Virus record (IMG/VR): IMGVR_UViG_3300046683_000929
Location: 1 to 64,000 of that record
DNA from: a virus
Strand: one strand, 5' to 3'
DNA length: 64,000 bases
Position numbers and translations under genes: made by a program. The notes below the pieces were generated by a model, which ran no database searches, had not been told where the DNA came from, and worked only from the letters and a program-made list of their open reading frames with translations. This document shows positions 1 through 20,278 of this stretch, one piece after another. Numbering within the stretch: the first letter of the stretch is position 1; each line of letters begins with the position of its first letter.

Positions 1-38
1 CGAATGTAATTTATTATTCCTTTTATTTGATTGATAAG

Positions 39-50
39 TTCACATTCACT
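39..50 (+). promoter_or_regulatory. TTCACATTCAC repeat, copy 1
   Basis: TTCACATTCACT differs from the repeated dodecamer TTCACATTCACA only in its last base. It lies 10 bases before an ATG at 61 that opens only a 12-codon frame, so here it precedes the structured RNA rather than a gene. It may be a promoter or leader element of the early block. Confidence 0.45.
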
Positions 51-97
51 ACTATTGTACATGCAAACGCCAGTTTGTTATTCGGTGTCTCTTTTTT

Positions 98-110
98 AGG
101 TCAATGACCT
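98..110. promoter_or_regulatory. AGGTCA-A-TGACCT palindrome
   Basis: A perfect 6-1-6 inverted repeat. With a one-base spacer it is too tight to fold as an RNA hairpin of that size, so a dimeric DNA-binding protein site is the simplest reading. It sits between T-runs about 350 bases before the first gene. No cognate repressor is identified. Confidence 0.3.
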
Positions 111-361
111 GGTTTTTAGCCCTCTGCGAAACCCATCGAGCCGAGCCATCTAAAAGGCTCACTCTTTAACCAATCGAGCAAAGAGTATAAATGTTAGTGA
201 TTGTAGGGAAACCACCCTTTGATACCCGAATCAAATAGAAAGGCGCAAATACAGTGTAACGACTGTAATAAAATGGGAGTAGTTAACCCGCATCGATGAG
301 TTTGTACATCGATGTAAGCGAGAAAGCCGTGTTAGTGAGTTATCACGCGGTGAGAAGTAAA

Positions 362-427
362 AACGTATACAGATTATATCTGTACTGATGAGAGATTAAA
401 ACAGTGTGTTTTGCATCTCGAAACGTT
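362..427 (+). ncRNA. Type III hammerhead ribozyme
   Basis: All core elements are present in the right order. Stem III is AACGT (362-366) with ACGTT (423-427). The cleavage triplet is GUA (365-367), predicting a cut between 367 and 368. Stem I is 368-374 with 378-384, a 7-bp stem with a 3-nt loop. The catalytic core CUGAUGA is at 385-391. Stem II is GAGAT (392-396) with ATCTC (415-419), extended by AAAAC/GTTTT (398-402/408-412). GAA is at 420-422, followed by A15.1. The required G10.1-C11.1 and A15.1-U16.1 pairs are both present. It lies in the leader 36 bases before the first gene, so cleavage would give an mRNA starting at 368 and release the RNA upstream. Confidence 0.88.
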
Positions 428-963: not shown

Positions 964-1230
964 ATGAAAAAGTTACTATTATTAGCCTCCTTACTTATTA
1001 TTTTAGCCTCTAAAAGCCACGCACAACAGCGCGTAACAGTCGACAAAGCCGGGAATTATACAGCAGTCAAACGCGACACCGCCCAGACCGCAGCCAAGCC
1101 CACAGGACACACGATCACCGCCACCGATGGTATAGTATACCCAGTATACGAAAGCGCACGCGGTAAGCTGTATTATAACCGAATCAGCAAAGCCGGGCAC
1201 GCTTACAAATGCTACATTAAAACAAACTGA
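964..1230 (+). CDS. Small exported protein, 88 aa
   Basis: The N-terminus MKKLLLLASLLIILASKSHA is a classical Sec signal peptide. The predicted signal peptidase I cut after SHA leaves QQ at the mature N-terminus, as in the Bacteroidetes Q-rule. The mature part is about 67 residues, rich in Thr, Lys and Tyr, and is expected in the periplasm. The last codons overlap the start of the structured leader at 1226. The function is unknown; envelope modification or superinfection exclusion would fit a small exported phage protein, but nothing here proves it. Confidence 0.75.
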   Translation: MKKLLLLASLLIILASKSHAQQRVTVDKAGNYTAVKRDTAQTAAKPTGHTITATDGIVYPVYESARGKLYYNRISKAGHAYKCYIKTN

Positions 1231-1296
1231 TTAAGGCGTTAAAACCGTGCGTTGTATCCCTGCTTATTAGGGGTACAGGTTCAGTAAATCAAAAAC
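1226..1296 (+). promoter_or_regulatory. Structured leader, class B, copy 1
   Basis: ACTGA (1226-1230) can pair with TCAGT (1281-1285). Inside lies the segment GGCGTTAAAACCGTGCG and a 9-bp hairpin (1253-1261/1269-1277, loop GCTTATT). It ends in TTCAGTAAATCAAAAA, 8 bases before the ATG at 1305. The same layout and internal segment recur at 6195. It begins inside the stop region of the upstream gene, so it belongs to a polycistronic mRNA. Confidence 0.55.
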
Positions 1297-1992: not shown

Positions 1993-1994
1993 CA

Positions 1995-2069
1995 ACCGTG
2001 GCAGCGGTATACAAACTGTTAGGCTGCCAGCGTCCCGGCTTATTTAGTCGGGGGTCAGTAAATCAAAAA
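1995..2069 (+). promoter_or_regulatory. Pseudoknot leader, class A, copy 1
   Basis: An H-type pseudoknot followed by a hairpin. Stem 1 is ACCG/CGGT (1995-1998/2005-2008). Its loop TGGCAG (1999-2004) is exactly complementary to CTGCCA (2024-2029). The connecting strand is 15 nt and ends GTTAGG. After GCG comes a hairpin (2034-2039/2047-2052) and then GTCAGTAAATCAAAAA, 5 bases before the ATG at 2075. Copy 2 at 3506 keeps the same lengths with different paired bases. Confidence 0.7.
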
Positions 2070-3102: not shown

Positions 3103-3507
3103 ATGAAAACCACCCAAAACATTGCCATACTTGTGGCTATCGCAATTCTTTTAGCCGTCTCCAGTGGGCAAGCTCAAACATTCAAAGGAAAATATATTGC
3201 CACAGAGACCCGAAAATTAAGCTCTGGAGACATGCAGCACGTGCCATTAAGATCACCATTGACGGGGATAATCAATTTGGAGCAATCAGCCCTTACAGTT
3301 GATGGAACAAAATATATTATTCTGAAACATGGGGGCCGCGAAATGGAAGACGAACTTTGGTCTACCATTTCAATTTTCATTGTGGAGGCATCGAATAAAA
3401 AAGTTATCGAAGCCATACTCCTTTATAAACCCGATAAAAAAACTCTTTCAGAGGTTATATTCAAAGGCGAAGCCGGGAGGCAGTATTCCTATATTATTTG
3501 TGATTAG
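3103..3507 (+). CDS. Exported protein, 134 aa
   Basis: An N-terminal Sec signal peptide ends SSGQA, with predicted cleavage before QTFKG (Gln at +1). The mature domain of about 110 residues is beta-strand-rich and looks like a small periplasmic protein; no family is recognised. The second pseudoknot leader starts within its stop codon, so its mRNA 3' end and the next leader are physically joined. Confidence 0.75.
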   Translation: MKTTQNIAILVAIAILLAVSSGQAQTFKGKYIATETRKLSSGDMQHVPLRSPLTGIINLEQSALTVDGTKYIILKHGGREMEDELWSTISIFIVEASNKKVIEAILLYKPDKKTLSEVIFKGEAGRQYSYIICD

Positions 3508-3586
3508 TCCTTTGGGGGACTTTAAACCACGTTAGGCCCAAAGCGGTTTCCCGGCTTATTGCTTGGAAACGTCAGTAAATCAAAAA
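3506..3586 (+). promoter_or_regulatory. Pseudoknot leader, class A, copy 2
   Basis: Same architecture as the element at 1995. Stem 1 is AGTCC/GGACT (3506-3510/3517-3521). Its loop TTTGGG (3511-3516) is complementary to CCCAAA (3537-3542). The connecting strand is again 15 nt ending GTTAGG, then GCG, then a hairpin GTTTCC/GGAAAC (3546-3551/3565-3570), then GTCAGTAAATCAAAAA. Paired bases differ from copy 1 but complementarity is kept, which is covariation. It ends 8 bases before the ATG at 3595. Confidence 0.7.
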
Positions 3587-3855: not shown

Positions 3856-3865
3856 TAAACCTATA

Positions 3866-3877
3866 TTCACATTCACA
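3866..3877 (+). promoter_or_regulatory. TTCACATTCACA repeat, copy 3
   Basis: Exact dodecamer preceded by CTATA, in the 34-base gap before the PP-loop ATPase gene. It ends 12 bases before the ATG at 3890. Confidence 0.5.
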
Positions 3878-10465: not shown

Positions 10466-10489
10466 ATCACCTTTTACGCTAAGTTTATA

Positions 10490-10501
10490 TTCACATTCAC
10501 A
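10490..10501 (+). promoter_or_regulatory. TTCACATTCACA repeat, copy 4
   Basis: Exact dodecamer preceded by TTTATA, directly after the terminator and 4 bases before the ATG at 10506. Its position right behind a terminator is the best evidence in the window that the repeat is part of a promoter. Confidence 0.6.
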
Positions 10502-16108: not shown

Positions 16109-16381
16109 ATGATGACAGATAAAGAATTGCGCAAAGAGCGCCACGAAGCATACCTGCTTATTTTATTCATTGGAATAGCCGCTTTCTTCATGTTGAGTGG
16201 GCTTGTTTATTGGGTTGAAAAACTTAATTCGTGGGGGATAAAGCAAAATAAAAGGTCAATAATTGTAAATGGAATGGGTGTGCCATTTACAGATACGGCA
16301 GTTTGGATTGTCGTAAAAACAGATAAGGACACATCGTTTATTTACATTAATGATAATCTTAAATTAAAGCATTGGAAATGA
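16109..16381 (+). CDS. Small membrane protein, 90 aa
   Basis: A charged N-terminus of about 14 residues is followed by one transmembrane helix (LLILFIGIAAFFMLSGLVYW) and a soluble C-terminal domain of about 55 residues. The start is the first of two adjacent ATGs after the previous stop. It overlaps the next gene by ATGA. Confidence 0.65.
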   Translation: MMTDKELRKERHEAYLLILFIGIAAFFMLSGLVYWVEKLNSWGIKQNKRSIIVNGMGVPFTDTAVWIVVKTDKDTSFIYINDNLKLKHWK

Positions 16382-18094: not shown

Positions 18095-18241
18095 ATGAAA
18101 AAACTTAAAATTAGGATATAGTTTTATGATACCAAAGATAAAGGGGTGTCAATATCATACACTCAAAGCATGCCTGATGGTAGTCAATCTAATCATTTTT
18201 GGGATATAGACGGTTTTTTTAACTGGTTTTATCATGAATAA
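18095..18241 (+). pseudogene. Small gene with in-frame TAG at codon 9
   Basis: The frame starts ATG at 18095 after a typical A-rich spacer, reads MKKLKIRI, meets TAG at 18119-18121, and then continues open for 39 codons of convincing protein (FYDTKDKGVSISYTQSMPDG and on) to TAA at 18239. Either it is a decayed gene, translation restarts internally, or amber readthrough occurs. No suppressor tRNA for TAG was identified here, so decay is the default. Confidence 0.5.
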
Positions 18242-19087: not shown

Positions 19088-20278
19088 ATGGAAAACAAAG
19101 AAATTGAATCGCCTGCAGAAAACGAAGCCGCCGCAAATTCTAACATGCCAATACCAATTACTCCAGACCAGCTGGCCTCCTTCATGGACTCTCGGAAATT
19201 ATCAATTGCCGGCAGGCAAACAATCAAAATCCTCGTTCGAAAAATATCTTTTCGCCCTGGACACAATGTTACAAGCGAAGAAAGCTACGATAAGGAATAC
19301 ATTGAGCAGCTTGCCGACTCCATTCAGGAATTAGGTTTAGAGCATCCTATTACCGTTGATCTTATGAAGGATGGAACGGCCTATGTTTTGTGGGGCCATG
19401 GACGCTTACTGGCTCACCGGCTGTTAATTGAACGTGGAGCCAAACGCAAAGGCAAAGGAAAGGACAGAAACAAAGAAAAAGGCTTCGAATATATCGAATG
19501 CTTCCTTGCGCCAAAAGATTACACCGAAATAGATCGTACAACAGCGATGATTTTGGAAAATGTTAAGCGCCATGTAAAGCCGATTGAACAAGCAGCCGGT
19601 CTTTTACGCTTAAAAGAATTTGGCTTGAGTAACGCCGCTATTTCAAAAATGCTACCAGGTATAAACGAAATGCAGATAGGCTTAATGCTTACCCTGGCTG
19701 GATTATCCAAGGAAGAGCAGGATTTGATAGCAGATGGCAAAATTAGCCCGACTGCGGCCGTTAAATTAGCCCGAAAGGAATCAGACCCAGCCAAGCGCGT
19801 AGAGATCATAGAAAAGGCAGCAGCAGGCGAAGACGGTAAACTCAAAGTGACCGAGGTAGATAACATTATCTCAGACCAGGAACAAGCCGACAATATCGCA
19901 TCTATGATGATGGGTAATGCAGCCAATGGCGAAACAGGAGATCCTTTTGCTAACGACCGCTCTGACTATCTTAAAATAAATTCAGGAGATAGTAACGATC
20001 CAAGCATGAAAGGAAACTCTGGAAAAGCACACGAGTCTACTCAGGATCCTGCCATCAAATCAAAAGACCAGCCTAAACCCCTGGATGAAGACGATAAAGA
20101 TGATCACGACATCGTAACCGGCAAAGCTACCGCCCGCGATATGATTGCTGAATCGGTTGAAATATGCAAGAAGCTTTCCTACGAAATTGAAAAGGATCTT
20201 AGCCCTAAAGGTATTACTCTTCTTTTTGATCTTGAAAAGAAATTACTTGATCTTAAAGCTATCTTAAAAAGTAAATGA
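19088..20278 (+). CDS. ParB/Spo0J-like protein, 396 aa
   Basis: The N-terminal domain (about 45-165) is ParB-like: IEQLADSIQELGLEHPITV, then a GHGRLLAHRLL box where canonical ParB has the GERR nucleotide-binding arginines. A helix-turn-helix segment follows (about 170-220, with SNAAISKMLPG). The C-terminal 150 residues are acidic and low-complexity before a final helix. In phages such proteins act in segregation, transcription control or as nucleases. No ParA partner is seen nearby, which favours a regulatory or nuclease role. Its stop overlaps the next ATG. Confidence 0.8.
   Translation: MENKEIESPAENEAAANSNMPIPITPDQLASFMDSRKLSIAGRQTIKILVRKISFRPGHNVTSEESYDKEYIEQLADSIQELGLEHPITVDLMKDGTAYVLWGHGRLLAHRLLIERGAKRKGKGKDRNKEKGFEYIECFLAPKDYTEIDRTTAMILENVKRHVKPIEQAAGLLRLKEFGLSNAAISKMLPGINEMQIGLMLTLAGLSKEEQDLIADGKISPTAAVKLARKESDPAKRVEIIEKAAAGEDGKLKVTEVDNIISDQEQADNIASMMMGNAANGETGDPFANDRSDYLKINSGDSNDPSMKGNSGKAHESTQDPAIKSKDQPKPLDEDDKDDHDIVTGKATARDMIAESVEICKKLSYEIEKDLSPKGITLLFDLEKKLLDLKAILKSK

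Follow-up and report, generated by a model that had tools for sequence, protein, structure and literature searches.

The window analyzed in this work comprises bases 1 to 64000 of a 98,180-bp virus record (hereafter the contig), and its early genes are located on the plus strand, from position 463 onward. The features of the early block are listed in Table 1. The block is preceded by a promoter-like site, one of 30 such sites on the plus strand of the contig, and by a leader whose minimum free energy of folding is −81.2 as compared with −65.7 for shuffled sequences (z = −3.67). The leader includes no ORF of 60 or more amino acids, and the Rfam scan of positions 1-720 revealed no RNA family or riboswitch in it. 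The hairpin at approximately 325-355 was considered as a possible domain V of a group II intron and rejected; as judged by eye, its bulge lies on the opposite side to that expected, and Rfam gave no match. We also observed the motif TATTCACATTCAC, which is repeated at 434-446, 934-946, 3864-3876 and 10488-10500, with additional weaker copies, often just upstream of start codons (10 matches with two mismatches at most, against 2.6 expected). Given that the copy at 10488 comes after a terminator-like hairpin, this motif may be a promoter or a translation signal of the phage.

Table 1. Position and supporting evidence of the features identified in the early block of the window
Feature	Position	Strand	Evidence and remarks
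Bacteroidota-type promoter-like site, TTTG-N20-TACTATTG	27-57	+	Consensus match only; one mismatch to TAnnTTTG
Structured leader RNA	64-361	+	Folding energy versus shuffled sequences; start inferred from the promoter-like site
Type III hammerhead ribozyme	362-427	+	Core, stems, fold, RF00008 on 81 nt, independent covariance model
First early ORF, 78 aa	463-699	+	ATG 35 nt past the ribozyme
Third, diverged pistol-like element (uncertain)	1186-1288	+	GCGU-P3-GGU-P2 3' half; P2 complementarity by eye
Pistol ribozyme	1994-2059	+	RF02679, 41.1 bits (gathering score, 34.5); 15 nt upstream of the ATG at 2075
Pistol-like RNA, 7-bp pseudoknot, P2 barely pairing	3506-3576	+	RF02679, 29.9 bits, below the gathering score

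The initial annotation of this DNA had claimed a complete type III hammerhead between the leader and the early mRNA, and we confirmed its three stems and the core sequences CUGAUGA and GAA where it had placed them. Stem III (362-366/423-427, AACGU/ACGUU) has 5 bp and is followed by A17 (367) and by stem I (368-374/378-384), which consists of 7 bp with the loop UAU. The core CUGAUGA (385-391; G5 at 387, G8 at 390 and A9 at 391), which carries the invariant CUGANGA, leads to stem II, formed by 5 bp (392-396/415-419) and, above a bulged C (414), by 7 bp (397-403/407-413); the core GAA (420-422) comes after CUGAUGA in the correct order. The whole element can be written as AACGU-A-UACAGAU-UAU-AUCUGUA-CUGAUGA-GAGAU...AUCUC-GAA-ACGUU. 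Also as claimed, the pairs G10.1-C11.1 (392-419) and A15.1-U16.1 (423-366) are present, together with the NUH cleavage triplet GUA (365-367), which places the predicted cut between 367 and 368. Among hammerheads the GUA triplet is rarer than GUC. Every stem is fully paired, stems I and II are closed by loops and stem III is open, which is the layout of a type III hammerhead.

Folding of the isolated stretch yielded the same structure as the predicted hammerhead (−17.7 kcal/mol, z = −2.49), and under this condition the pairing probability of stem III was 0.94. The pairing probabilities of the stems were 0.72-0.91 when positions 58-700 were folded and 0.75-0.91 for positions 1-1000; for positions 58-435 they were 0.46-0.87, and stem III was paired in just 46% of the ensemble. 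Examination by eye revealed no convincing contact between loops I and II and no convincing pseudoknot in the element, and stem II, with its 12 bp and one bulge, is long, so the rate of cleavage at physiological Mg2+ may be low.

To evaluate a chance resemblance, a type III descriptor requiring 4 bp or more in each stem was searched over both strands of the contig, and the element at 362-427 was its single match. In 1516 strand-Mb of Markov-1 random sequence this descriptor found 16 matches, and thus approximately 0.002 matches would be expected by chance in the contig (0.196 strand-Mb); when the stems were set to 6/5/5 bp, no match was found in the same amount of random sequence. The only point in favor of a chance resemblance is that the Rfam scans of 1-64000 and of 1-720, as well as an RF00008 (Hammerhead_3) search of the contig, did not detect the hammerhead. 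However, on positions 355-435 alone RF00008 produced an end-to-end alignment (360-429) with 26.1 bits and an E value of 3.8e-4, and given that this 81-nt scan detects the element, the silence of Rfam in the larger scans was not counted as evidence of absence. The score is below the RF00008 gathering score of 48.5; among related phage elements, that of phage elemoE obtained 36.3 bits, also below this value, and that of L136 obtained 49.6 and passes, from which it follows that RF00008 is strict for phage hammerheads. The covariance-model check proposed in the initial annotation was therefore ambiguous at first with RF00008; an independent model, built solely from four type III elements of other phages, resolved it, with 359-431 as its sole match in the contig (34.1 bits, E value of 2.3e-6). 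In the elements of these four relatives 7 of the 17 pairs are changed on both sides and 100% of the cells are paired. When six elements (that of the window, the four relatives and L165, described below) were aligned by fitting them to the model, 97.9% of the pair cells were paired and 8 pairs showed changes on both sides, values that far exceed those of slid controls. Together with the fact that its placement between a promoter-like site and a first gene matches that of the relatives, these results leave chance as an exceedingly improbable explanation, and, judged by its sequence and by comparison with relatives, the element is almost certainly a real hammerhead. These results also indicate that the curated cut-offs of Rfam overlook phage hammerheads.

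The terminase of this virus (L006:9777-11789, minus strand) shows at best approximately 22-25% identity to anything found, its relatives being Flavobacterium elemo phages, Cellulophaga phages and similar metagenome contigs. The phages of the elemo type are linked to this virus by the terminase only (approximately 23% identity). The hammerhead core pattern, combined with folding, was applied to 29 records, mostly terminase relatives, and type III hammerheads were identified in 4 of them: elemoE_6-9C (G016) and the metagenome phages G015, G027 and G028. Several of the 29 records also carry type I hammerheads, and in three of the four (G015, G016 and G027) the type III element is followed on the same strand, at a distance of 0.9-1.8 kb, by a type I element. 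All four share the order promoter-like site, leader (approximately 180-220 nt), type III hammerhead and ATG. The promoter-like sites, defined as TTG, 19-21 nt and TAnnTTTG with one mismatch at most, precede the type III core by 204-246 nt in the four relatives, and by 204-327 nt when the window is included; the elemo phages have a second site further upstream (432 nt). The first ATG is found 17-20 nt after the CGAAAC of the core in the relatives, and 17-38 nt after it with the window included. In elemoE (NC_055854) the type III hammerhead (18095-18154) is upstream of gp59, the first gene of a minus-strand block that leads to an Erf-like annealing protein, and the type I element is at 16332-16355. 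The elemo phages thus resemble the window in having a promoter-like site, a leader, a type III hammerhead with a GUA triplet and the first gene of a block; in contrast, their leader is shorter (approximately 180 nt) and unrelated in sequence, and their downstream ribozyme is of type I, whereas that of the window is a pistol.

No sequence homology was found when the leaders of the window and its relatives were compared. The leader of elemoE is structured (z = −2.72), and that of L136 is not measurably so (z = −0.30), which indicates that the arrangement does not generally include a structured RNA; the order of the elements is shared across these phages, but the leader RNA is not. Only one of the eight matches of the hammerhead pattern in GTDB genomes is a real type III element (L165:4294-4337, minus strand), which is located between two genes, just upstream of a ribosome-binding site and an ATG, in a contig assigned by binning to an uncultured Firmicutes bacterium. 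The matches of the hammerhead stem II pattern in IMG/VR were a type I element, present in L009 and L011, and otherwise chance matches. IMG/VR contained no close relatives of the early proteins, the replication initiator or the terminase of this virus. The search for phage DNA related to positions 1-2500 found nothing beyond a short Cellulophaga-phage match at ORF 1305, and no plasmid DNA related to positions 1-700 was found. A viroid-like or retrozyme circular RNA was also considered and rejected, given that the contig holds a single hammerhead.

Downstream of the hammerhead, the early block carries a pistol ribozyme with the expected P1-loop pseudoknot (6-7 bp, UGGCAGC/GCUGCCA). The pistol-like RNA at 3506-3576 is possibly a decayed pistol copy, and the third element, at 1186-1288, has no Rfam match. 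All three are followed by an identical leader, CAGTAAATCAAAA, and then by an ATG. A pattern based on the pistol leader GTCAGTAAATCAAA was found at 24 loci in IMG/VR, none of which was recognizable as a pistol. A pistol was also detected in Cellulophaga phage phi46:3 (KC821622), which has been cultured; it is at 19461-19528 on the minus strand (46.5 bits), and the annotation table of the record has no RNA feature at these positions. It overlaps the end of gp046, a gene that matches window ORF 1305 in DNA, and it sits in the block that corresponds to the early block of the window. Pistol ribozymes are associated with phages and were discovered near other ribozymes or ribozyme-associated genes (PMC4604425). 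The element at 1994-2059 agrees with the RF02679 pistols of that report in passing the cut-off and in having the pseudoknot; pistols are a class separate from hammerheads, and here the element appears as the companion of one.

From this arrangement, we propose that the type III hammerhead probably cuts the early transcript just past its leader and in this way trims the early mRNA. Transcription would start near position 64, downstream of the promoter-like site; the leader would fold, and the hammerhead would then fold and cut at the predicted position, setting free a leader of approximately 300 nt that ends in a 2',3'-cyclic phosphate. At 368 the early mRNA would start with a 5'-OH, retaining the folded core of stems I and II approximately 35 nt before the first ATG, and it would gain a defined, structured, non-triphosphate 5' end separated from the leader, as in the synthetic insulator RiboJ. 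The downstream pistol, and perhaps the element at 3506-3576, would cleave close to the 3' end of the ribozyme, and the block would in this way be split into mRNAs of smaller size. Type III hammerheads are cleaved on their 5' side, and the folded core remains on the mRNA; type I hammerheads and pistols cut near their 3' sides and remain on the upstream piece. A type III element followed by a type I element or a pistol is thus predicted to generate mRNA segments that carry ribozyme folds at both termini. The motif, its statistical support, its recurrence in the same order in distant phages and the pistol are shown here; we infer that the promoter is used, that cleavage occurs and that the stability or the translation of the mRNA is affected. 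The initial annotation had suggested a processing role for a hammerhead placed as the boundary between a structured RNA and an mRNA. That placement is indeed found here, and the role is strengthened by the conservation of the order promoter, leader, type III hammerhead and gene in distant relatives and by the additional ribozymes downstream; in view of the L136 leader, a structured RNA does not hold as a general feature. A broader proposal, which we consider tentative and somewhat doubtful, is that divergent Bacteroidota phages share a module of promoter, leader, type III hammerhead and early gene that provides a standard structured 5'-OH mRNA end, that a type I hammerhead or a pistol sets the downstream boundary, and that the folds at both ends shield the mRNA from host decay initiated at the ends.

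Other roles for the same elements can be conceived. The leader and the hammerhead could form a switch, in which the leader senses a ligand, a protein or an RNA and controls cutting, so that cleavage is regulatory; the marked structure of the leader, which ends only about a dozen nucleotides upstream of stem III, and its competition with this stem when 58-435 is folded would be in agreement with this idea. Nonetheless, the hammerhead is retained in relatives whose leaders are unrelated in sequence and in one case unstructured, and given that no Rfam riboswitch was matched in 1-720, we consider a switch unlikely. It could also be that the leader is the main product, the hammerhead forming the 3' end of a small trans-acting phage RNA of approximately 300 nt, with a secondary effect on the mRNA. 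The strong structure of the leader here and in elemoE and the promoter-like site directly upstream fit this reading, which is however quite unlikely in view of leaders that show neither sequence conservation nor an Rfam family, that of L136 being unstructured.

It should also be considered that the hammerhead may be decayed, either inactive or very slow, and devoid of a present role. Its score under the Rfam gathering cut-off and the lack of a visible tertiary contact could be read in this sense, as could the broken P2 of the pistol-like RNA at 3506-3576, which implies that ribozymes decay in this genome. Nevertheless, all the core positions and all the pairs of stems I, II and III are intact, despite the fact that the stem sequences differ from those of the relatives, and decay is accordingly very unlikely.

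To our knowledge, the purpose of phage and bacterial hammerheads has been an open question ever since their discovery. As a member of its class, the window element has the core CUGAUGA...GAA, the three stems, the open stem III, the N-U-H triplet and the element order of RF00008; it differs in its sub-threshold score, its long bulged stem II, the GUA triplet and its presence in the leader of a dsDNA phage. The accessible text of Perreault et al. 2011 (PMC3088659) describes clustered phage and prophage hammerheads that flank genes or gene blocks, for which the processing of long phage transcripts was proposed. The window shares with the hammerheads treated in that text the vicinity to phage genes or blocks and the processing idea, and it differs from them in having a type III element in a promoter-proximal leader and a pistol downstream in the same block. 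In E. coli, transcripts and proteins become more abundant with RiboJ, which is based on a self-cleaving ribozyme (PMC6206723). In both cases a ribozyme of a self-cleaving class is placed between a promoter leader and a gene; RiboJ provides the mRNA with a structured 5' end, as the phage element is predicted to do. In contrast, RiboJ is engineered, has 75 nt and carries an added hairpin of 23 nt, whereas the phage element is natural and comes after a long leader. A literature search of partial coverage recovered no paper naming both the hammerhead ribozyme and Flavobacterium phage. What is new is the recurrent promoter-proximal leader architecture in divergent phages, the ribozyme class and the processing idea being already known. 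Since this simple arrangement recurs in distant phages, and one of them, elemoE, belongs to a cultured phage-host pair, the trimming or stabilization of early mRNA is directly testable by means of the RNA ends in infection.

Regarding the rest of the record, its ends carry no exact repeat of 10-500 bases. Its far end encodes a Lin1244_N-domain replication initiator and a DnaB helicase, beside which there is a dense array of TTAATGTAACATTAA repeats (L007:15730-16060; contig 97730-98060). Together with a ParB-HTH protein encoded at window positions 19088-20278, these elements provide this phage with a plasmid-like module for replication. The record also includes a full-length phage GroEL-like chaperonin (L006:13313-14881; PHROG 5725, E value of 5.6e-150).
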